From Nitrospirota bacterium (GTDB lineage: Bacteria > Nitrospirota > Nitrospiria > Nitrospirales > UBA8639), in contig RFGF01000042.1 of the NCBI GenBank assembly GCA_003695915.1, forward strand, positions 1 through 64,000: a stretch of DNA of 64,000 nt, in the 5' to 3' direction. A program made the translations under genes and the position numbers. Positions 42,003 through 56,893 of this stretch are shown piece by piece. Numbering within the stretch: position 1 is the stretch's first letter; every line of letters starts with the position of its first letter. The notes under the pieces were generated by a model. The model was given only the letters and a program-made list of their open reading frames with translations. It was not told where the DNA came from and made no database searches.

Positions 42003-42570
42003 GTCCGAGAGTCATATGACATTCCTGAATCCGCGCCGTCACCGACGACGGAACGATAAAGGGATACTCGACCAGTGTCGCGAGTTTGCCACCCGTGCCT
42101 CCAGTCCATCCCACAGTCACCAATCCGCGTGTTCGCGCAACCTCGACTCCACGGAGGACATTATGGGAATTGCCGCTTGTGCTGATGGCCACAGCGATAT
42201 CGCCTTTGCGGCCATGGGCATGGATTTGCCGAGCAAAGATCTCGCTGTAATCATAATCATTGGCAATGCAGGTCACGGCGGCCAAGTCCGTCGCCAGAGC
42301 AATGGCCGGAAGCGCCGCTCGGTCACGATGATAACGCCCCACAAATTCTGCGGCGAGATGCGAGGCATCGGTCGCGCTCCCTCCATTGCCGAAAAACAGC
42401 ACTTTCCGTCCTTCGTGAAATGCCCGGATCATGACTTGCGCCACATCGACAATACGTTGGGCATAGGTTTGGACAAACTGCCGTTTGACTGCGGCACTGG
42501 TCTCGAATCGCTCGATCACTTCATCTCGGTCCATGGCGGCAGATTGTAACAAGTCATCGACGTGTTGCAT
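41953..42570 (-). CDS. gmhA: Sedoheptulose-7-phosphate isomerase (SIS domain)
   Basis: 205 aa from the ATG at 42570 (GTG two codons earlier). GmhA makes D-glycero-manno-heptose 7-phosphate for LPS inner core. The SIS pattern is GNGGSATDASHLAAEFVGRY, VAISTSGNSHNVL and QECHMTLGHVLCEIIE. The ring of conserved residues fits GmhA rather than a generic SIS protein. Overlaps the next gene by 50 bases. Confidence 0.88.
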   Translation of the reverse strand: MQHVDDLLQSAAMDRDEVIERFETSAAVKRQFVQTYAQRIVDVAQVMIRAFHEGRKVLFFGNGGSATDASHLAAEFVGRYHRDRAALPAIALATDLAAVTCIANDYDYSEIFARQIHAHGRKGDIAVAISTSGNSHNVLRGVEVARTRGLVTVGWTGGTGGKLATLVEYPFIVPSSVTARIQECHMTLGHVLCEIIEERIFAETP

Positions 42571-42620
42571 AGACACAAGGCCTTAATGACGAGCCAGACG
42601 ATCTCGTTGTGCTTTGCCTT

Positions 42621-42647
42621 GCTGGGCTTGGAGCGTAATGATATAGT
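42621..42647 (+). promoter_or_regulatory. Extended -10 promoter at the CARF gene
   Basis: TGATATAGT (42639-42647) is an extended -10 element (TGn plus TATAGT). A weak -35-like TTGCTG lies 17 bases before it. The predicted start site falls at about 42654-42655, on the GTG of the CARF protein, which suggests a leaderless mRNA. Confidence 0.4.
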
Positions 42648-42654
42648 CGTAGCC

Positions 42655-43908
42655 GTGAGTACCGAGGGTTCCGTCAAAGCATTGCTGATCGCCGTGACCG
42701 ACGCCCCCGGCCCTGTTATCGCGTGTCTCCGCCGTCTCACCCCTGAACTGCTGTGTTTTTTTCTCCCCGCGTCCCGTCAGGCCTGTGTCGATTCTGAGAT
42801 TCACCCTACCCTCACCAAACTTCCCCAACGATGGGACTCTATCGTCACGCCCGATGCCAGCAGCTTTCCTTCATCTCTTCAGGTTCTCGCTGATCGCTTA
42901 CCCGTTCTCCTTCGAACATGGACCGTCGCACCGGGAGAATTGGCCATCGACGTCACTTGTGCCACTCCAGCCATGGCCGCCGCGATGGCGTTAGTCGGGC
43001 TCCCTTTTGCCGGACGGATCGGAACATCAAACGTCCCCGGCCAAGACGAGATCTGCGATGATCGATCCCTTGATCGGACGATAACCTGGGCATACAGCAA
43101 CCCCTGGGATCGAACAGCGGAATACTTCGGACATGAGGCGGCCGACCTCTTCAACCTGGGCAGGTATGCCGCGGCCGCGCAGGGTTTTCGACGTCTTGAG
43201 CACCGAGTGAGCGGTGGCTTGAAACCGCTGTATCGAGCCCTGGGCGATTTGTCCGAAGGCTATAGCCTTTGGGACCGATTTGGCTATCGGCAGGCCTGGG
43301 ACAAGCTCAAAACAGCGCTCAAATCTTTGGAGCTGAGCGCGGCTTGGGGCGGCCCCTCTGGGTTGCAGACGGTCTTACGCCATGTCAAGGACAATTTCCG
43401 TTTCCTCGAACAGGTGGTCATGGATCCCCAAGCCGTCAAGCCTCATCTTGGTGCCGATCTTCTCGCACATGCCAAACGACGCGTGGAACGCGACCGCAAC
43501 ATCGAGGTCGGCACCCGCGTTCTGCTTCGAGCTCTCGAAGTTTATGCCCAAACACAATTGTTTACTCGCTACCACATAAAAAGCTGGGATGTGGACATTG
43601 ATCGGCTTCCACAGGCGCTGAAAGAAACATGCCGGACTTGTTATCTGAGCGATGTCGACGGGAAATATCACTTGCCGCTGCATGCACAATTTCGAGTCCT
43701 CGCCGGGCTCGGCGATGCCATGGGACAGGCGTTTTTAGCCAATTGGGCAGCGATGAAGTCGCTCATGGACGCTGCCGATCACGCCATTCTTGGAGGAGGA
43801 TTTACTCCTATTAAGCTCGAACGATTTTCTCAACTGTACGACATGGTGCTGAAGCTCTGCCAAGTTCGCGACGTCGACCTTCCGACGTTTCCCACCCTCA
43901 AACTGTAG
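42655..43908 (+). CDS. Orphan CARF-domain protein, Cas02710 (TIGR02710)-like
   Basis: 417 aa from the GTG at 42655 (an alternative ATG is at 42586). The N-terminal half reads as a CARF fold: a first strand and loop ALLIAVTDAPGPVIACLRRL with PELLCFFLP, then IDVTCATPAMAAAMAL in the place of the usual (D/N).TGGTK.M. The second half is helical: ADLFNLGRYAAAAQGFRRLEHRV, then LLAHAKRRVERDRNIEVGTRVLLRALEVYAQ, as in the Cas_Cas02710 family. These sense cyclic oligoadenylates in type III CRISPR systems. I see no CRISPR array or cas gene in the window and no clear R-x4-6-H HEPN motif. Family call moderately sure; function inferred. Confidence 0.65.
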   Translation: MSTEGSVKALLIAVTDAPGPVIACLRRLTPELLCFFLPASRQACVDSEIHPTLTKLPQRWDSIVTPDASSFPSSLQVLADRLPVLLRTWTVAPGELAIDVTCATPAMAAAMALVGLPFAGRIGTSNVPGQDEICDDRSLDRTITWAYSNPWDRTAEYFGHEAADLFNLGRYAAAAQGFRRLEHRVSGGLKPLYRALGDLSEGYSLWDRFGYRQAWDKLKTALKSLELSAAWGGPSGLQTVLRHVKDNFRFLEQVVMDPQAVKPHLGADLLAHAKRRVERDRNIEVGTRVLLRALEVYAQTQLFTRYHIKSWDVDIDRLPQALKETCRTCYLSDVDGKYHLPLHAQFRVLAGLGDAMGQAFLANWAAMKSLMDAADHAILGGGFTPIKLERFSQLYDMVLKLCQVRDVDLPTFPTLKL

Positions 43909-46343: not shown

Positions 46344-46778
46344 TTACCTCATGAGCATCTGGTTGGCGATGTTCTGCCGTTCAGCCAACGTGAGACGCGT
46401 ACCGGCTAACACGAACACCACCGTTTCCTCGTGACGAATATGCGTCTGAAATTGACCGATCAACGTGTGAATTTCCTCAGGATCGGGGATTGTGTGCTGA
46501 CAGGTCCCTTGCATGGCCTCCATGAGCTTTACGATCTTTTCTTCCAATTCGCGATGTTCCTGCACCAACGAATCGAGCGATTGGCCACCGCTTCCCAGCG
46601 CCGTTCGCAATCCTTCGAACAGGACCTGCTCTCTTCGGAAATGCACTCTACAATCGCGCATGAGAGCCTGCAGAAGAGCGAGACGGGTTTCTTTGTTTTC
46701 CACCTGCTGCTCGAGCAAGGCCAATTGCCCCAACAGGACAGCATGATCGTTCTTCAGCAGACTGACGGGATCGTCCAT
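46344..46778 (-). CDS. Hemerythrin-like (HHE) protein
   Basis: 144 aa from the ATG at 46778 (a TTG start at 46871 would add 31 residues but would leave only 8 bases between it and the FNR-like site). Four-helix bundle with iron ligands in NDHAVLLGQL, HFRREQVLFE, HRELEEK and HIRHEETVVF. Hemerythrins bind O2, NO or act in Fe-S repair. The nearby Crp/Fnr-type gene and FNR-like site suggest O2 or NO response. Confidence 0.85.
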   Translation of the reverse strand: MDDPVSLLKNDHAVLLGQLALLEQQVENKETRLALLQALMRDCRVHFRREQVLFEGLRTALGSGGQSLDSLVQEHRELEEKIVKLMEAMQGTCQHTIPDPEEIHTLIGQFQTHIRHEETVVFVLAGTRLTLAERQNIANQMLMR

Positions 46779-47134
46779 CGCAAGATCCAGCGATGTAGTT
46801 TCGTGAAGTCCGACGAGCCTCAGCGGCGCATCGTAGAGCAAGAAAGGTCGAGTGTCGTTGCGGAGGGACAAGACGTTTACTGATTCTGATCAAGTTCTTT
46901 CATAGGTCTTTAGGCCTGCCGGTTTGAGCTCTACTCGAGGCCTGTTGGCTTCAGAGAAACGGCAGATCCGCGTAACGTGTGGGTTTGAAGAAGGATGTCT
47001 TGAACAGCGTTCTCGCGACACTCTGCCCTTCACCTCGATGAGCTTTGGGGCAAATCGGCCTCGAAGACGATCGTGACCTCCCTGATGCGGGGAGGCTCAA
47101 CGATAAGGAGAAAGGAATAGGCGAAAGGAGACTC
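46779..47134. other. Intergenic region between Crp/Fnr and hemerythrin genes
   Basis: About 355 bases after the end of the Crp/Fnr gene. It contains an FNR-type box (46880-46893) and a TACGAT -10-like element near 46828. No gene supported. Confidence 0.45.
46880..46893 (-). promoter_or_regulatory. FNR/CRP-type binding site
   Basis: On the minus strand TTGATCAGAATCAG matches the FNR consensus TTGAT-N4-ATCAA in nine of ten positions. It lies about 100 bases upstream of the hemerythrin ATG at 46778. The Crp/Fnr-type protein encoded at 47135-47899 could bind it. Confidence 0.45.
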
Positions 47135-47899
47135 TTACGGAGAGGAAAGACGGCGGGCCGCCCGTGCGAGGCGGTCCGCCTGACAGATGGTGATCTCGCG
47201 CCCGTGGATCTCGATGATCTTTTTGGTATGCAACGCGGTCAGAATGCGCACGGCGGTTTCCGTGGTCATTGCAGCCATTTGCGCCAATTCCTCGCGTCGG
47301 AGTTGAAGCGCAATCCGGATGCCCTGCTCCGCCGGCTCGCCGTAGCGATTCGCCAATTCCAGCAAGAGGCCGGCAATGCGCTCGCGGGCAGAGGCAAACG
47401 CCAACTGATCGGATTCCTCCAACGACGAACCCATCGTTCGGCTCAACAACTTGACGAGGCGAACAGCCAATTCGCCATGTCGTTCGAGAAACGCGAGATA
47501 CTTCGTTCGATCCAGCACGCACACCTGAGAGGGCTCAATGGCTTCACAGGTGACTTCATGAACGGCACCGTCTTGAAACGTGTGCTTTTCGATGAGCTGC
47601 CCCGGATCGACAATGCCCACCAGACGGCATTGGCCGCGCGCCGTCGTCCGCGTCAGCTTGACCCGCCCCGAGCACAGGATATACAGCCCCAAGACCGCGT
47701 GCCCCTCGTAAAACAGGAATTGGCCTGGTCGATACACCAGCGTATGCCGAATGGCCTCGAACTCCGAAAAAAGACCGGGCTCCACATTACAGAGATCCGC
47801 GGTTTCCCGGCTCGGGCAAACTCGGCACTCGATCAATGCCGGCCGAGTCCATCGCGTGGTCGACCGATCCATGCTTCCAACTCTACCGTTTTCGCCCAT
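47135..47899 (-). CDS. Crp/Fnr-family transcription regulator
   Basis: 254 aa. A cyclic-nucleotide-binding-like beta roll (YRPGQFLFYEGHAVLGLYILCSGRVKL) is followed by the long dimer helix and a winged HTH (RREELAQMAAMTTETAVRILTAL). An N-terminal CRVC.........C set (Cys near residues 27, 30, 39) resembles the cysteines of FNR that hold an oxygen-sensitive [4Fe-4S] cluster, but spacing differs. This suggests O2 or redox sensing. It is followed by the hemerythrin gene with an FNR-like site. Confidence 0.85.
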   Translation of the reverse strand: MGENGRVGSMDRSTTRWTRPALIECRVCPSRETADLCNVEPGLFSEFEAIRHTLVYRPGQFLFYEGHAVLGLYILCSGRVKLTRTTARGQCRLVGIVDPGQLIEKHTFQDGAVHEVTCEAIEPSQVCVLDRTKYLAFLERHGELAVRLVKLLSRTMGSSLEESDQLAFASARERIAGLLLELANRYGEPAEQGIRIALQLRREELAQMAAMTTETAVRILTALHTKKIIEIHGREITICQADRLARAARRLSSP

Positions 47900-47981: not shown

Positions 47982-48575
47982 TTATTCTTGCTCCAACGGG
48001 AACGAAATAATAACGCCGCCCATGACATCGCCGAGCTTGAAATCCCGGCGTGAGCTGAGAATATGGGCATTGTGGCAGTTGACGCAAGCCTGCGATACGG
48101 CTCGGTCCGCGTAGATGGCCTTGAAGAAGCGCTTGCCGCCTCGCGTGATAATGCCGGAATAGACGTCGTCGGGATTATTCGCGACGAATTGCAACCCGGC
48201 TTGTTCGAAATCGTTCGCCGGACCATTTCGTTCATAAATAGGCCACAAACTCGCCAATCGGTAATGAAGTCCTAACCCGCGCGCCGCCACTTCCTGACCC
48301 GACATCAACAACATTTGTGCGGGAAGCGGAAGCGCGTTCCGTTTTTTCCAACCCTCGCTGGCCATGACAATTCCTAGTTCCTGCATGCGTTCTACGACAT
48401 GGGTCGTGTAGAGCGTGCGATCCGCTTCGATAACAGCGTGAATATAATCGGCCACAATTTCCGGAGGAACTCCAAACGCCTTTTCCTCAGCTCGTACACT
48501 TGGCATGGCTGCTATCCATCCACACATTGCCGCACTCAGAACGATGACTTTCCAGAATGAAGGCTGAGTACGCAT
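47982..48575 (-). CDS. DUF3365 (Tll0287-like) c-type haem protein
   Basis: 197 aa from the ATG at 48575, preceded by GAAAGGAGGACGTC. A signal peptide (VIVLSAAMCGWIAAMPSVRA) precedes a PAS-like DUF3365 domain and a single haem-c site CVNCH (164-168). Similar single-haem proteins are periplasmic redox sensors or carriers. It lies between the cupredoxin gene and the Crp/Fnr gene on the same strand. Confidence 0.85.
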   Translation of the reverse strand: MRTQPSFWKVIVLSAAMCGWIAAMPSVRAEEKAFGVPPEIVADYIHAVIEADRTLYTTHVVERMQELGIVMASEGWKKRNALPLPAQMLLMSGQEVAARGLGLHYRLASLWPIYERNGPANDFEQAGLQFVANNPDDVYSGIITRGGKRFFKAIYADRAVSQACVNCHNAHILSSRRDFKLGDVMGGVIISFPLEQE

Positions 48576-48740
48576 GACGTCCTCCTTTCTCTCGCCCGCG
48601 ATTGACGAGAAGTCTACATGATTGATGCATTGCTTCGTGCCCCCATCCATAGGATTATTTGCCACTTGAGATGGCTTCGGGACACGTTGACTTTACTGTA
48701 TTGTACGCTTTTGCAAGAACGAAATCGACAGATGCCCCAA

Positions 48741-48801: not shown

Positions 48802-49713
48802 TTATTTTTGTAGCTCGACAGTGGGAACGATCTTCGATCCGCCCAACAATTCCATCCCGAAACGGGTTTGCTCTTGTGCTTCGTTGACGTACAACCGACC
48901 TTTAGGCGCTTCGAATTCGATATCCAAGGTCGTCGTTTGATTGGGCTCGATCGTGACGGTGAACTCCTTTGTGAGCATGGGATGCCAGGCCACGACTTGG
49001 TACGTTCCCGGCGGAATCTCATCGATCACGAATTTTCCCTGCTCGTCGGTCAAGGCATAATACGGATTTTTCACTGCCACGCCCCAGCTTTCCATATAGG
49101 GGTGAAAGCCGCACTGCATGGCGAAGATATTTCTTCCTCGCCGCATCTTCACTTTTTCGATCATGATTTTGCCGGCACGATTTTTCACCGTTTTGCCAGC
49201 CATCAGATCCTGCTTTCGAAGCTTTGGGCTCATCGGCAGCGGATCGTTGAACAAGACCCGAGCCCCATGCTTGGACGTTTCGTACGCCTGGATGTCGTGC
49301 ATGACCGGATCCATGTTCACCACTTTCACATTGCCCGGATCCCGAACGACTGTGATGTACGGCTCGAAACGACAGTCTTTCGCTTCGATCAGGGGCGGCG
49401 TGAATTTAAAAGGTTTTCCCTTTTCAACGCGCTTGAAGTAAATCACCACGTTCTGAAATTCGCCCTTGGGTCCCACTTGAAACGGCTGCAGCAATCGCCA
49501 GCCTTGTCCATTGGAAATTCGTCCGCAATACACCGGGTCGGGGAAACTGACCAGATTGTACCCTTTTGGCTTCGGCACCTCACCGTGCAAGGTCACCGTG
49601 CCTTGAAGTGTCCCGCCTTGTTCGACGGAAATTTCTTGATATGCCGCAAACGCAGGGGCCGCAACCAGCGCCAGCCCAACCACGATCGCAAGCATCAGCA
49701 TGCGCACATTCAT
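48802..49713 (-). CDS. Secreted cupredoxin / carboxypeptidase-regulatory-like protein
   Basis: 303 aa, ATG preceded by AGGAGGAGATT. Signal peptide MNVRMLMLAIVVGLALVAAP.... A central cupredoxin-like part (about 30-212) contains H139 and the motif CGFHPYM (C201, H204, M207), the type 1 copper set Cys-x2-His-x2-Met. The C-terminal part (about 212-280) is a carboxypeptidase-regulatory-like beta sandwich (GKFVIDEIPPGTYQVVAWHP) that often mediates protein contacts. It probably carries an electron for the multicopper oxidase encoded next to it (inference). Confidence 0.75.
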   Translation of the reverse strand: MNVRMLMLAIVVGLALVAAPAFAAYQEISVEQGGTLQGTVTLHGEVPKPKGYNLVSFPDPVYCGRISNGQGWRLLQPFQVGPKGEFQNVVIYFKRVEKGKPFKFTPPLIEAKDCRFEPYITVVRDPGNVKVVNMDPVMHDIQAYETSKHGARVLFNDPLPMSPKLRKQDLMAGKTVKNRAGKIMIEKVKMRRGRNIFAMQCGFHPYMESWGVAVKNPYYALTDEQGKFVIDEIPPGTYQVVAWHPMLTKEFTVTIEPNQTTTLDIEFEAPKGRLYVNEAQEQTRFGMELLGGSKIVPTVELQK

Positions 49714-49834: not shown

Positions 49835-52800
49835 CTACTTCTGGAACGAAGCCGGAATCGGCTTGGTGTCCTCCGATGCTTCAACCAGCCGCTTCCCGGC
49901 TTTGGGTCCGCCCAGCGGAAGAATCCGGGAATCGTTCTCGGGCAAGACCCGGAGATACCCCCATTGACCGGATTGTGAGTACGGCAATCGTCCATTGCTC
50001 CAGACATAGTCGGCTGGAAGGGCATATTTTCCACCGGCCGAAGGCAGGAACACATCCAAGCCTTCGGAAGCCGCGAACTCGACGGTGCTGATCATATCGG
50101 CACCAGGCAAGAAGGGCTCGATCGGCCATTCGTGCTTTTCGATCGTGAACATGCCGTTCTGTTCACTGCTGGCGCCGAAGACATGGATCCGCACCGGATC
50201 TCCGGCATGCGCCTCGATGATCGGCGTCACCGGATCCTGAGGATTGTCGACCTGGCACGGCTGGAATACCCGACCGAGCGAGCAGCCTAGTTCTTCGCGA
50301 TACGGATACGGTTCGGCTCGATAGTTCACACCGGTCAGTCCGGCCACATTTTGGACGTAGGGCATGAAACTCGTGCCGATGATGTTGTCTTCATCTTGGA
50401 AGAACAACGCCGCATCCCGATAGTTGCTCCGCTGCTCGTTGCCTTGGATCGTGCGATCCACGATCACATCCGCAATCCAGCTATTTTTCAAGGAGATATC
50501 CTCTCCAGTCTTGGGATCGCGATAGGTCGAGCCCTTCGGTCCGATGATGATCGCACCAAAGAGACCGTTGCGCGGATTGACGGCAACATTGCCCCAATCC
50601 CACACGATGGTCTGCGTCTCACCGATAAAGGGATCCGCGTAGTAGGTATAGGTCCGGCTTTCATTCGGCCCGACCGTTTGATCACCCGGATTGTTGCCTA
50701 GATTCAAGCCGAGCGAATCCTTCGGGTCGAACGCCAAGCCGATCGCCGAGAACGAGGCCCGGCCTTCTTTCATTTTGTTGGTCAGTTTCACCTTGATGCA
50801 GTCGCCGACATTCGCTCGCAATGTGAGCGGCATCGGTTGTGCCCCTCCGGCAACTTTCTGAATATCTTCCTCCAGCGCATAGATCTTGGCATCAGGATTG
50901 CGCAGCAAGATCTTACGCTCGAAGTCGACCTCGATAGCTTCCGGAGCATTGGGATTGAAATTCATGTCGGGATAGTCCATAGCCACGACATTGAACTTTT
51001 TCACTGGGGCATCAGCAGGACAGACCGGCTGTGGCGCAGGCATGCCCTCGGCCCCATAGGCCTTGTTCGGCAATGGCTTGAGGTCATCCACCGGATGGTC
51101 GAGGACCCGAAGGATTCCCCAAGATCCCTCCGAGAAATGTGAGGTTCGACCGTTGAAGAAAATATAATCACCCGGTCGATGCCGAGGTCCTCCAGCCTCA
51201 GGGATCACCAAGTCATAGCGTTCCGCAATCCCGATATGGATGGAGTATTTGCGATTCGCCTCTTGGGCATACCGCTCCGTCCAGAAAGTATGGCCCGACA
51301 GCGTGAAGACATTGCTTTCGTTCATGGTCACATCGAGCAATCGGAAGACGATGGCATCACCGAGATATGCACGCAACAGCGGTGTGCTCGGATCTCCGTG
51401 CACCCAACTGCTGAACAGCTTGGAGGCATCCGGGTTGTTCGCAAGCCGTTGGGCAAACGGTTCAGCTCGGAAGTTGAGCGCACCGCCCGTGGTATGCGTA
51501 CCACCGTTCAAGAACGGCGACGGGGTCATTTTGATCTCTTCCGGCATGATGAAGGAGATCGTCTTCCCCGCCTCCAACGCCACTTCCACCGGCTGGCCAG
51601 GCGGATTGCCAGCGGTGACGATGTTGACGGTATGCGGAACGGTATCCTGAATGTGCACCATCAATTCTCTAAAGCTTCCGGCTACATCGTGCCCCACGCG
51701 TTCCGTGGCATGGATGTCCGCAATGGGCCCCGTCCGAATCCGTTTCCCGGTTTTGGGATCATGCCATGTGGAGCCGAATGGTTCAGCGATAATCGTTCCA
51801 ATCGCACCGTGCGGCCATGTCGTACCGCCGAAGGCGTGATCGTGCCAGAAGACCGTTCCCACATCGGCATCTACCCAGAACCGCTGCCACACATATTCGA
51901 CGGTCACGATGTCGCCGACTGGATGGTCATGTTTCAGCGGTTTGGTGAAGGTGAGGGTTTTGTCCCCGATCTTTTCGATCCGCAGGATTTCCCAGCCTCC
52001 GACATTATCGGCCCCGACCAGAATCGGAATGCCGACATGGTATTGTTTGGCATTCGTCACATGGATGGTACGCTCCCCTTTCTTGGCTGCTTTCGTGATC
52101 TTGGCATTCATCGGCACCGGCAACCCCTTATCCTTTTTCTTGGCGAACTGAATAAAGGGCCGCATCGATTGCTCATACGAGAGACCGGAGATCACACCAT
52201 CGGATGCTTGATTGTCGAATTGCAAGAAATGGAAATGGGTGTTGATCTTGGACGATTGGAAATTCGTGTAATCGTCGTCCACCCATTCGTTGGTCAGGAG
52301 CCAGTCCACACAATCGTAGACATTGGCTCGGACCACCAATGGATATTTCTTGTCGTTATTCTGTCGCACCTCGGCTTCTTCTTCATGAACCACATAGAGC
52401 AGGCCATCTTTGTCCACGATCGGGTTTTCTTTCCCTTGTTTCGCGGACAATTCGATGGGGGTCCGAATGAAGTGGATGTTGTACATCTGCCGGCCAGCCC
52501 GTTCCGGGCAAAGACTCCATCGGCCGTTTTCTCCCGGCTTGGCAGGATAGACGCTAATCTCACCATCCTCATCGATCCGAATCGGCTCCAGCCATGGCGC
52601 ACCGTTATGATCCCGAGAGAAGGGCGCCCGCTTGCCGAAATGCGGGGTCAACCACGGCCAGGCTACTTTTCCGGTGGTTGGCTCGAACCAAATGGGCCGA
52701 CGCTCGCCGGGTTTATAGCCCTGCCACTCGGGGTGATACTTGGGGTTTTCACCCAAGGTGGCCTCTTTTTCGCTCATCGCCCGGTTGCCATCCCATACCC

Positions 52801-54712
52801 AATCGACCACCGTGGCATCGTACGCTTTGAGCTGACCCAGTTCATCTTCTGTGTTGCCCGGCAACCCTCGGCTGGGCAACTGAATTTCCACCCAATCCTT
52901 GATGTTCACAACGGCGGGATCGGATTTCCAATCGCTTTTCCCGCTCGCCACAATTTTGAATTTCTTGCCGAACCAATTGACAGTTTTGCCGACCAACTGA
53001 TCCGAGGTCACCGGCTTATGAATCCGGCCAACGCGATCCGGCAACTCCCGCAGCGGCGGCATCACATCGTTTTGGAATCCAGGAACCTGCAGCGTGTTAT
53101 AGACCCGCCAGTATCCCCACATACCGGCTACATAGTGATGGGCCACGTGGCAGTGGAACAGAAAGTCTCCGGCCAGATATTGGCAGAGCCCAGATCCGCA
53201 CTCGGTCTCTAAATCCAAAGCTTCGGCCGGCCCGATTACTTCCACGTCGACCCGGTCGGATTTGGTCCGGACCACAGGATACTTCACCGGCCCACTCTGA
53301 CCCGTCGTCCAGACGGGCATTTGCGTAGCCCGTGGACTCCGCTGCCATCGAATCGATCCGCCATGCGGATGATGAGAATGGAAGACCTCCGATCCACCAT
53401 GTACAACCCGGAATTTCGCCGGATCGCCGAGATAACTGCGAGGAATGGTCGGTGCGGCATCGCCAAACGTATAGGCGCTATAGGCCATCGACTCGTCTTC
53501 GAAGCCAAAGTATTCATGCTGCACGTGCATATTGTTGATCCCGAAAGGCTCGCTCCGATAATTCAAGGCACGCGCCCCGGGACGATAGGCATCCGTGAGC
53601 GGGTCTCGTTGCGGAAGGAAGTCGCCGTGTTTGTTGACGGGACGGAAGGCTTCGTCGCCCACCTCATGATAGATCAAAACAAATTCGCGGAAATCCGGCC
53701 CTTTGGGCGTATCGATCATGACCTGCCACCCGCTCTTGGCTTCGGTGGCCGGCCCGGTTCCCAATGGTTCCAAATACTTAGATCCCGCGGGTTCCACCAC
53801 GAACACTCCGAACAATCCCATCACCGTCAGCTCGCGATCATTGCTGTACGTGTGGAATTGCCGTCCACCTTCTTGGGTCGAAGGATGGATATACCATTCC
53901 ATCTCAATCGTTTCGCCCTCACCGGCGACGGAATCGGGATTGGTGGTGGTGGCCGGCTTGCCGGTTTTGCTCATCACCATATCGGAGCCATTGATGTGCA
54001 AGCTGACCTCTTCGCCGAACTCTAGTTTGTTTCGCAGGGTGATCTTCACGCAATCGCCCTGGTTTCCACGAATGACCAACGGCTGGATCCATTGATTCTG
54101 GACGCCATTGATGACGCCGCCTGGATCCGAATGTCCTTCCTTCTCCCGGGCGGCAGCATTCTTGGCTTCCTCCTCCCGCACCTTGTCGATATTCTCGGTA
54201 AGCACATACATGTACCCGGGATAGTAATCGAGCCATTGATTCAAGGTGATTTCCACATTGATCGCGGAAATGTCGTAGTGCTTGACCGGTGCAGAAGCCG
54301 GACACCGCCCCCCTCGGTCGGAGACCGGCTCCACATCCGGATTCGAAGCCAGCAAGCCATTAGCTCGCCCGGCACCGTATTGGTGCATCATCGACATCGT
54401 ACCGAACGCGCCGGTGGTGGACCGCTGATGCCGCATTTCCTTTTGAATCTGCTGCATCATTCGCTGATGCTGCAGCTCCACCAGTGCCGCTCGTTCGGCT
54501 TTGCCTTCCACGGCGTTTTCGGTAATGGTTTGTCCTTTGAGTCGCTCAGCCCATCCCAGGGAAGCGGTAGACGATGTCGCCACCTTTTTCACCTGGGGAG
54601 ACGGCGAGGCATCCTTCGCACTCACTGACGGTGCACCGGTCAAAAACGTCGCACCTCCCAGCAGCGCGAAGAAGGCGGTAATGGTAAGTGGAGAAACTTT
54701 CTTGTAGACCAT
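49835..54712 (-). CDS. Giant multicopper oxidase with permuted copper motifs
   Basis: 1625 aa from the ATG at 54712, chosen over the longer frame because AAGGAGGGAGG precedes it and a signal peptide follows (LTITAFFALLGGATFLTG). Type 1/type 3 motifs: H445-S-H447-H448-P-H450 (about 445-450); HCHVAHHYVAGM (H520, C521, H522, H526, M531), the complete HCH-x3-H-x4-M set; then H826-F-H828 and H957-D-H959. The usual order (two HxH first, HCH last) is reversed. Three copies of a unit beginning NYRSEPF/NFRAEPF/NYRAEPY (383, 1079, 1462) show internal repeats. The C-terminal copies lack copper ligands. Probably periplasmic or extracellular; it could oxidise metals or phenols. Confidence 0.9.
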   Translation of the reverse strand: MVYKKVSPLTITAFFALLGGATFLTGAPSVSAKDASPSPQVKKVATSSTASLGWAERLKGQTITENAVEGKAERAALVELQHQRMMQQIQKEMRHQRSTTGAFGTMSMMHQYGAGRANGLLASNPDVEPVSDRGGRCPASAPVKHYDISAINVEITLNQWLDYYPGYMYVLTENIDKVREEEAKNAAAREKEGHSDPGGVINGVQNQWIQPLVIRGNQGDCVKITLRNKLEFGEEVSLHINGSDMVMSKTGKPATTTNPDSVAGEGETIEMEWYIHPSTQEGGRQFHTYSNDRELTVMGLFGVFVVEPAGSKYLEPLGTGPATEAKSGWQVMIDTPKGPDFREFVLIYHEVGDEAFRPVNKHGDFLPQRDPLTDAYRPGARALNYRSEPFGINNMHVQHEYFGFEDESMAYSAYTFGDAAPTIPRSYLGDPAKFRVVHGGSEVFHSHHPHGGSIRWQRSPRATQMPVWTTGQSGPVKYPVVRTKSDRVDVEVIGPAEALDLETECGSGLCQYLAGDFLFHCHVAHHYVAGMWGYWRVYNTLQVPGFQNDVMPPLRELPDRVGRIHKPVTSDQLVGKTVNWFGKKFKIVASGKSDWKSDPAVVNIKDWVEIQLPSRGLPGNTEDELGQLKAYDATVVDWVWDGNRAMSEKEATLGENPKYHPEWQGYKPGERRPIWFEPTTGKVAWPWLTPHFGKRAPFSRDHNGAPWLEPIRIDEDGEISVYPAKPGENGRWSLCPERAGRQMYNIHFIRTPIELSAKQGKENPIVDKDGLLYVVHEEEAEVRQNNDKKYPLVVRANVYDCVDWLLTNEWVDDDYTNFQSSKINTHFHFLQFDNQASDGVISGLSYEQSMRPFIQFAKKKDKGLPVPMNAKITKAAKKGERTIHVTNAKQYHVGIPILVGADNVGGWEILRIEKIGDKTLTFTKPLKHDHPVGDIVTVEYVWQRFWVDADVGTVFWHDHAFGGTTWPHGAIGTIIAEPFGSTWHDPKTGKRIRTGPIADIHATERVGHDVAGSFRELMVHIQDTVPHTVNIVTAGNPPGQPVEVALEAGKTISFIMPEEIKMTPSPFLNGGTHTTGGALNFRAEPFAQRLANNPDASKLFSSWVHGDPSTPLLRAYLGDAIVFRLLDVTMNESNVFTLSGHTFWTERYAQEANRKYSIHIGIAERYDLVIPEAGGPRHRPGDYIFFNGRTSHFSEGSWGILRVLDHPVDDLKPLPNKAYGAEGMPAPQPVCPADAPVKKFNVVAMDYPDMNFNPNAPEAIEVDFERKILLRNPDAKIYALEEDIQKVAGGAQPMPLTLRANVGDCIKVKLTNKMKEGRASFSAIGLAFDPKDSLGLNLGNNPGDQTVGPNESRTYTYYADPFIGETQTIVWDWGNVAVNPRNGLFGAIIIGPKGSTYRDPKTGEDISLKNSWIADVIVDRTIQGNEQRSNYRDAALFFQDEDNIIGTSFMPYVQNVAGLTGVNYRAEPYPYREELGCSLGRVFQPCQVDNPQDPVTPIIEAHAGDPVRIHVFGASSEQNGMFTIEKHEWPIEPFLPGADMISTVEFAASEGLDVFLPSAGGKYALPADYVWSNGRLPYSQSGQWGYLRVLPENDSRILPLGGPKAGKRLVEASEDTKPIPASFQK

Positions 54713-55009: not shown

Positions 55010-55024
55010 GCAATACCAATGCCA
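55010..55024 (-). promoter_or_regulatory. Sigma-54 promoter of the oxidase gene
   Basis: On the minus strand the site reads TGGCATTGGTATTGC. It fits the -24/-12 consensus TGGCACG-N4-TTGC with correct spacing; only the two bases after TGGCA differ. The predicted start is near 54998. The sigma-54 activator encoded at 55460-56893 lies directly upstream. Confidence 0.7.
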
Positions 55025-55459: not shown

Positions 55460-56893
55460 TTACTTTATAGAATAGGCCTTGAGCTTATTGTATAAACTCG
55501 CCCGGCTGATCCCCAACAACTTGGCGGCCTGAGTTTTATCTCCACCAGTTTGGCGGAGCGCATCCAAAATCCTGGTTTTTTCCACCTCTCGGCGAGCAGT
55601 TCTTCCAATCTCCCTCAGACTGACCGGATTGCTTTCGCTCCTGTTGGGCAGGCAACCGAAAAAGTCATGGGCGGTGAGCGGCGTGCGCTGGGAGGTCACC
55701 ACCACTCGCTCCACGAGATTTTCCAATTCACGGACGTTCCCCGGCCAGTGATGCGCCATCAAGGCTTCCATAGCGTGGTCGTCCACGGTCGGAACGTCTC
55801 GTCCGTGCTTGCGACAGGATTGTTTCAGGAAATAGCGGACGAGAAGCGGAATATCCTCTCGCCGTTCGCGCAACGGCGGAATCGTCAGCGGAAGGACTGC
55901 GAGACGATAATAAAGGTCCAGCCGAAACGCTTTCGCTTTCATCAACCCTTCCAGCGGACAATTGGAGGCGGAAATAACACGGACATCGACTTTGATGGAA
56001 CGGTTGCTCCCCACCGGTTTGATCTCGCCTTCTTGGAGAACTCGCAAGAGCTTGGCTTGGAAGACCGGCGTCGTATCGGCGATTTCATCCAAGAAAATCG
56101 TTCCCCCTTCGGCCTCCTCGAATAACCCTTTGCGATCGGAGGTTGCCCCGGTAAAGGCACCGCGCACATGGCCGAAGAGTTCGCTTTCCAACAACGTTTC
56201 CGGGAGGGAACTGCATTCGACGACAACAAACGGACGGGCTCGTCGCCGGCTCTGTCGATGAATCGTTTTGGCGACAAGCTCTTTTCCCGTCCCGCTCTCA
56301 CCCTGAATGAGGACAGTCGCTTCGCTTGCCGCCACCAGGCGAATCATCTCGATCAACTGTCGCATGGGTGGGCTTTCGCCCACGAGTTCGGGCAGGTCCG
56401 AGGCAATAGCGCGATCGTTTCGCGACTGTTCATCGCCTGCTTGCGCATTCCAGATCACGCTTGGCTGTCCGGTCGGCCCCATCATGACCACACAGCCCAC
56501 ACCTGTCTGTCCAACGATCGGCACGGCACGAGGCAAGGGGCACCGTTCATCGATCGGAGCGGCAGGCGATGCAGACGGGTCCCGTGGATTTTCTGCCAAT
56601 TCTTTTGCCGGGCATGCCGGACAGGAAGATGGGCCAGCAGGAGGCGCGGGAGCGCTCGCTCCCGGCTCGACCAAGGGGCAGGTTCCAGCGAGTCGTTCGG
56701 CCGAAGGATTGGCGTAGATGAGCCGCAGATCGGAATCGACGATCACGACAGGTTCGTTTACTTGATGGGCGAGAAGGGTCAGACCTTCAATCCGAGCGGC
56801 AAGAAGAGGATCCTCATGATAAGGAAGATAAGGAATATGTGTAAACGATCCGGCCATCGTATACTTCCCATCTGTTGGCTCATCTGCCAGCAT
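55460..56893 (-). CDS. PAS-AAA+-Fis sigma-54 activator
   Basis: 477 aa. PAS-like sensor (about 30-75) with a cysteine-containing insert (CPLVEPG...CPACPAKE...CPLPRAV) that could bind metal, an AAA+ domain (about 170-410; Walker A GESGTGKE, Walker B GGTIFLDEIAD), an intact GAFTGA loop (SELFGHVRGAFTGAT) and a Fis-like HTH (DKTQAAKLLGISRASLYNKLK). A second start at Met13 is possible. It is the likely activator of the oxidase promoter. No receiver domain, so it responds to a ligand or redox/metal signal. Confidence 0.9.
   Translation of the reverse strand: MLADEPTDGKYTMAGSFTHIPYLPYHEDPLLAARIEGLTLLAHQVNEPVVIVDSDLRLIYANPSAERLAGTCPLVEPGASAPAPPAGPSSCPACPAKELAENPRDPSASPAAPIDERCPLPRAVPIVGQTGVGCVVMMGPTGQPSVIWNAQAGDEQSRNDRAIASDLPELVGESPPMRQLIEMIRLVAASEATVLIQGESGTGKELVAKTIHRQSRRRARPFVVVECSSLPETLLESELFGHVRGAFTGATSDRKGLFEEAEGGTIFLDEIADTTPVFQAKLLRVLQEGEIKPVGSNRSIKVDVRVISASNCPLEGLMKAKAFRLDLYYRLAVLPLTIPPLRERREDIPLLVRYFLKQSCRKHGRDVPTVDDHAMEALMAHHWPGNVRELENLVERVVVTSQRTPLTAHDFFGCLPNRSESNPVSLREIGRTARREVEKTRILDALRQTGGDKTQAAKLLGISRASLYNKLKAYSIK

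Follow-up and report, generated by a model that had tools for sequence, protein, structure and literature searches.

The 64,000-nt window analyzed here, the whole of the stretch taken from contig RFGF01000042.1 of a Nitrospirota bacterium, carries on its minus strand the gene for a giant multicopper oxidase. Directly downstream, on the same strand, is the gene for a 303-aa protein that resembles a type-1 copper protein (Table 1). The oxidase reading frame is open as far as 54889, and the ATG at 54712 was chosen as the start; a GGAGG-type ribosome site precedes this codon, and a Sec-type signal peptide, judged by eye, begins at it.

Table 1. Coordinates of features at the oxidase locus, numbered along the window
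Feature	Coordinates	Strand	Basis
Sigma-54 activator, NtrC-type, with PAS domain	55460..56893	(-)	Pfam; immediately upstream of the oxidase
Sigma-54-type -24/-12 element TGGCATTGGTATTGC	55010..55024	(-)	Pattern search; 312 bp upstream of the start codon
Giant six-domain multicopper oxidase, 1625 aa, predicted to be exported	49835..54712	(-)	Translation; match to MnxG 9bxa
Motif C (HxxHxH): H445 (T1), H448 (T2), H450 (T3); cupredoxin domain 2	53363..53380	(-)	Aligned to MnxG H281/H284/H286
Motif D (HCHx3Hx4M): H520, C521 (T1), H522, H526 (T1), M531 (axial); domain 2	53120..53155	(-)	Aligned to MnxG H334-C335-H336, M345
Motif A (HxH): H826, H828; domain 3	52229..52237	(-)	Aligned to MnxG HIH 529-531
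Motif B (HxH): H957, H959; domain 3	51836..51844	(-)	Aligned to MnxG HDH 575-577
Copper-protein-like neighbor, 303 aa, predicted to be exported; type-1 copper ligand pattern (H139, C201xxH204xxM207); C-terminal CarboxypepD_reg-like domain	48802..49713	(-)	Pfam; family alignment
Tll0287-like (PF11845) protein with c-type heme site CVNCH, following the copper-protein gene	47982..48665	(-)	Pfam

The neighboring gene and its surroundings

The ligand pattern of the 303-aa protein is shared by its family. Among 115 family sequences, H139, C201 and M207 are found in all and H204 in 114; C63 and C114 are also invariant. Since a PDB search with the 303-aa sequence returned no convincing relative, type-1 copper binding by this protein is a prediction. 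The pairing of the two genes recurs: the neighbor gene lies within 3 kb downstream of the oxidase in 58 of the 66 oxidase loci with room for it, and was not found within that distance in the other 8. The association with the Tll0287-like gene is only local, with such a gene downstream in 8 of the 66 loci.

Upstream of the oxidase, a strict sigma-54 pattern is present on the sense strand in 17 of 90 upstream regions and on the antisense strand in none, and 18 loci have a relative of the NtrC-type activator upstream of the oxidase. Several other genes in the window were identified by Pfam. Downstream of the oxidase unit are genes for a Crp/Fnr-type regulator (47135-47899, minus strand) and a hemerythrin-like protein (46344-46871, minus strand). 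On the plus strand, 42562-43908 encodes a 448-aa protein with Csm6 6H and HEPN domains, the type III CRISPR ancillary ribonuclease family.

The genome also encodes a second giant oxidase, on contig C98 (locus L129, 8170-13266, minus strand), that is 78% identical to the first. In this copy, Cys replaces Trp ahead of the HDH motif (VFCHDHAFG). Two members of the copper-protein family, a HEAT-repeat protein and a DsbH-like protein are encoded downstream of it.

Copper ligands and relationship to MnxG

All the ligands of a multicopper oxidase are present in the protein, arranged from the N terminus as HxxHxH (residues 445-450; H445-S-H447-H448-P-H450), HCHx3Hx4M (520-531; H520-C-H-x3-H526-x4-M531), HxH (826-828; H826-F-H828) and HxH (957-959; H957-D-H959). 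Translation and alignment place the motifs where the initial annotation had located them, with C and D ahead of the two HxH motifs. That annotation had given the first set as H445-x-H447...H450. Its position stands, but in the alignment to MnxG the ligands are H445, H448 and H450, and H447 is an additional conserved histidine outside the ligand set. Conservation of the ligands is nearly complete: all 108 aligned sequences share H826, H828, H957, H959, H448 and H450, and 107 of them keep H445, H520, C521, H522, H526 and M531. In 20,000 composition-preserving shuffles, HxxHxH arose in 4.8% and HCHx3Hx4M never, so a chance origin of the motif set is excluded.

Which family does the oxidase belong to? 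Pfam returns only fragments, as weak Cu-oxidase matches, and TIGR01480 (CopA) scores 18.9 bits against a curated cut-off of 478.95. These weak matches are what would favor an ordinary laccase or a CopA-type protein, a disfavored assignment that is extremely improbable given how far the CopA cut-off is missed, the six domains described below, and the order of the motifs. In the laccase-type order A, B, C, D, the HxH motifs stand ahead of HxxHxH and HCH, which is the reverse of the order here. On both points, the distance from CopA and the reversal relative to laccases, the initial annotation is borne out.

The best solved-structure match by sequence is instead MnxG from Bacillus sp. PL-12 (9bxa_A), far above all others, with E values of 1e-84 (sequence) and 1e-105 (profile). 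The profile alignment is colinear across all four motifs. MnxG residue numbers given here were counted off the printed profile alignment, in which residue 340 of 9bxa is Ala because that chain is the H340A complex. The likeness to MnxG, which the initial annotation had put forward and proposed to check by such a search, thus extends to sequence, to fold and to motif order. The best NCBIfam match is also MnxG (NF041487), at 133.2 bits against a cut-off of 3100, and judged by this family model the oxidase is not an MnxG equivalog.

The same motif order is found well beyond Nitrospirota. In mnxG of Bacillus SG-1, the HCHL primer lies 5′ of the domain-B primer, consistent with this order (PMC3039467). 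Three plasmid-encoded proteins also have it: one from Priestia megaterium, identified as MnxG by its sequence score of 1700 bits against 9bxa, one from Streptomyces with 32.7% identity across most of its length, and one from the haloarchaeon Halalkalicoccus. Judged from these sequences, the motif order is a known trait of the MnxG-like oxidase group and is not new.

Because two overlapping AlphaFold models match MnxG 1-802 and 618-1216, the oxidase is modeled with the six cupredoxin domains of MnxG. It exceeds MnxG by an N-terminal segment, by extra length in the linker that joins domains 2 and 3, and by residues inserted between motifs A and B. The model of residues 130-1225 has MnxG 1-802 as its top match (Z 21.0, 697 residues aligned, rmsd 5.1), and the model of residues 1000-1620 has MnxG 618-1216 (Z 25.8, 499 aligned, rmsd 3.0); the two overlap in domain 4 and together span MnxG end to end. 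This architecture is well supported. Structure prediction therefore yielded the domain count that the initial annotation had asked for, but not a direct placement of the trinuclear site: pLDDT is below 50 at residues of about 440-534, parts of domain 2, so the trinuclear geometry is taken from homology to MnxG and not from the model. The low pLDDT is probably due to the input alignment, which consists mostly of sequences that are 67-85% identical, plus one at 53%.

Distribution in Nitrospiria and published homologs

Among 186 Nitrospiria genomes that are at least 90% complete, the oxidase is present in 185, counting matches with E values up to 1e-50. Outside the class, a sample of the phylum gave few matches, all of them weak; the closest named relatives are from Nitrospirales MAGs. 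Two contigs filed under other taxa, L057 (Opitutales OFTM84) and L061 (Nitrosomonas OFTM190), encode oxidases that are 81% identical; these contigs are probably misbinned Nitrospirales.

The copper-protein family is likewise present in 185 of the 186 genomes, with several copies per genome. The sole genome without it (G043) is also the sole one without the oxidase, a 90%-complete MAG in which the joint absence is one data point; this genome retains close NxrA matches. From its position and distribution, the neighbor is proposed as a redox partner of the oxidase.

This near-perfect co-occurrence of two often adjacent genes could also mean that the neighbor, reduced by the periplasmic electron chain, is itself the true substrate, and that the oxidase delivers its electrons to O2 in a step that conserves no energy and would protect against O2 or redox stress. 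In keeping with this idea, Nitrospira and Nitrospina are described as having no SOD and catalase in the relevant part of the N. gracilis genome paper, which had earlier proposed for the oxidase a defense against ROS through Mn(III) (PMC3578206). However, several copies of the copper protein per genome imply that some must serve otherwise, and the closest solved relative, MnxG, oxidizes Mn(II). This explanation is possible but doubtful.

Is the oxidase part of nitrite oxidation? With a limit of E 1e-250, 121 of the 186 genomes gave a close NxrA match, all of them within the order Nitrospirales; this threshold is strict, and gaps in MAGs can mimic absence. Because the oxidase is present in genomes without a close NXR, its job is apparently not nitrite oxidation itself; allowing for the strict NXR limit and MAG gaps, the distribution argues that the oxidase is not tied to that process. 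The host of the window is probably a nitrite oxidizer, because its genome encodes a full-length match to NxrA 7b04 (1592 bits). Tight linkage of the oxidase and NXR was considered for this genome and rejected, as the NxrA-like genes are on other contigs. A separate case is a region of Nitrospira moscoviensis (L086, 5-12800), where an NxrA-matching ORF and a 449-aa ORF, probably NxrB, are upstream of one oxidase copy. This arrangement agrees with the NXR link of PMC3578206.

Homologs of the oxidase have been described before. As set out in its passages on this protein, the N. gracilis genome paper reports a periplasmic multicopper oxidase, part of an NXR-linked gene set, that is highly conserved in Ca. 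N. defluvii and similar to the SG-1 Mn oxidase (PMC3578206). MnxG-like genes are also mentioned in the relevant parts of papers on Nitrospira MAGs of sand filters (PMC12070406) and on nitrifier MAGs that include UBA8639 (PMC11995701). The main text of the N. marina paper, in which proteome support was sought, does not mention a multicopper oxidase. Hence, the Nitrospira and Nitrospina homologs, the likeness to MnxG and the link to the NXR cluster are already published. In the portions of the literature covered, no mention was found of a count across the class, a colinear alignment with a solved structure, the pairing of the two genes or the sigma-54 element. These points appear to be new, although they may have been published.

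Proposed reaction and comparison with known oxidases

What reaction might the oxidase catalyze? We consider it reasonably probable that the protein is an exported, O2-reducing, MnxG-like six-domain oxidase that most likely acts on a reduced metal, with Mn(II) leading, and that the neighbor is its dedicated type-1 copper carrier. In such a scheme, electrons from a reduced metal ion, most plausibly Mn(II), or from the neighboring copper protein, acting as a dedicated type-1 electron carrier, would enter at the single type-1 copper of domain 2 (H445, C521, H526, M531). They would follow the His-Cys-His path (H520/H522) to a presumably copper-loaded trinuclear cluster between domain 2 and domain 3 (H448, H450, H520, H522, H826, H828, H957, H959), where O2 would be reduced to water. 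Mn(II) is the leading candidate, as yet unproven: a search for a published substrate test of this oxidase found none, and because identity to the MnxG-type proteins compared from outside the class is only about 25-33%, it is unsafe to transfer the substrate from MnxG.

Other substrates can be envisaged. Ceruloplasmin, which has the same six-domain fold, oxidizes Fe(II) and NO. The Nitrospiria enzyme could similarly oxidize Cu(I), Fe(II) or NO to relieve metal or nitrosative stress; this is unlikely, given that no operon for copper efflux or for iron uptake was recognized directly beside the gene (a CopD-like gene is about 4.5 kb away). Nitrospira do have NirK, a putative NO-forming nitrite reductase (PMC8115632).

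A further alternative concerns the fate of the electrons. The oxidase or its partner might pass electrons from Mn(II) to the periplasmic copper protein and on to respiration, supporting growth. The Ca. Manganitrophaceae, Mn oxidizers of the same phylum, have two multicopper oxidases each, and their authors, in the passages concerned, state that lithotrophy would require a periplasmic carrier (PMC9040806); a carrier-like protein is encoded beside the oxidase here. The same passages, however, express a preference for Cyc2 and PCC_1 (PMC9040806). Moreover, a complete trinuclear site directs electrons to O2, and the NXR in this genome is already a sufficient energy source. Growth on Mn(II) through this oxidase is thus distinctly improbable. 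More broadly still, the oxidase and the copper protein could form a core Nitrospiria redox module, independent of nitrite oxidation, that oxidizes Mn(II) and diverts some of the electrons into the periplasmic chain. This is very unlikely to hold in full; if it did, the class Nitrospiria would have inherited Mn oxidation from its ancestor.

The gene pair also bears on a practical setting. Nitrospira and their relatives are widespread nitrifiers, and the relevant parts of a study of drinking-water filters link them to manganese removal, with the enzyme unproven (PMC12070406). A near-universal, apparently uncharacterized MnxG-type oxidase and its likely redox partner provide a concrete protein pair to test.

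How does the oxidase compare with others already described? Its likeness to MnxG of Bacillus sp. PL-12 (9bxa) and SG-1 covers the six cupredoxin domains, domains 2 and 3 as the site of the type-1 and trinuclear ligands, the motif order and the axial Met. The Nitrospiria oxidase is ~400 residues longer, owing to the N-terminal segment, the linker between domains 2 and 3 and the insert between motifs A and B, and it falls under the NCBIfam equivalog cut-off. It also differs in its company. Bacillus MnxG needs MnxE and MnxF (PMC5622069), whereas here the neighbor is copper-protein-like, and MnxE- and MnxF-like queries from Priestia, short and divergent enough to give only weak negatives, had no convincing match in the genome. 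The oxidase of N. gracilis and Ca. Nitrospira defluvii is called MnxG-like in the passages of PMC3578206 that treat it; those passages do not go into the order of the motifs, conservation across the class or the pairing with a copper-protein gene. An N. defluvii homolog, 72% identical, was recovered among the relatives in this analysis (L119).

Pseudomonas MnxG (NF041487), McoA and Leptothrix MofA are likewise giant bacterial multicopper oxidases tied to Mn oxidation. The match to NF041487 is far under its cut-off, and McoA and MofA are set beside the oxidase by description only. Ceruloplasmin shares the six-domain cupredoxin ring, in which every even domain meets the following odd domain in the same manner. 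Its trinuclear site is between domains 6 and 1, whereas that of the oxidase would be between domains 2 and 3: the ligands are at 445-531 and 826-959, which correspond to MnxG domains 2 and 3, and are not split over the first and last domains. The apparent permutation of motifs is therefore perhaps best read as a matter of which domain interface kept its copper, the 2/3 interface here and the 6/1 interface in ceruloplasmin.
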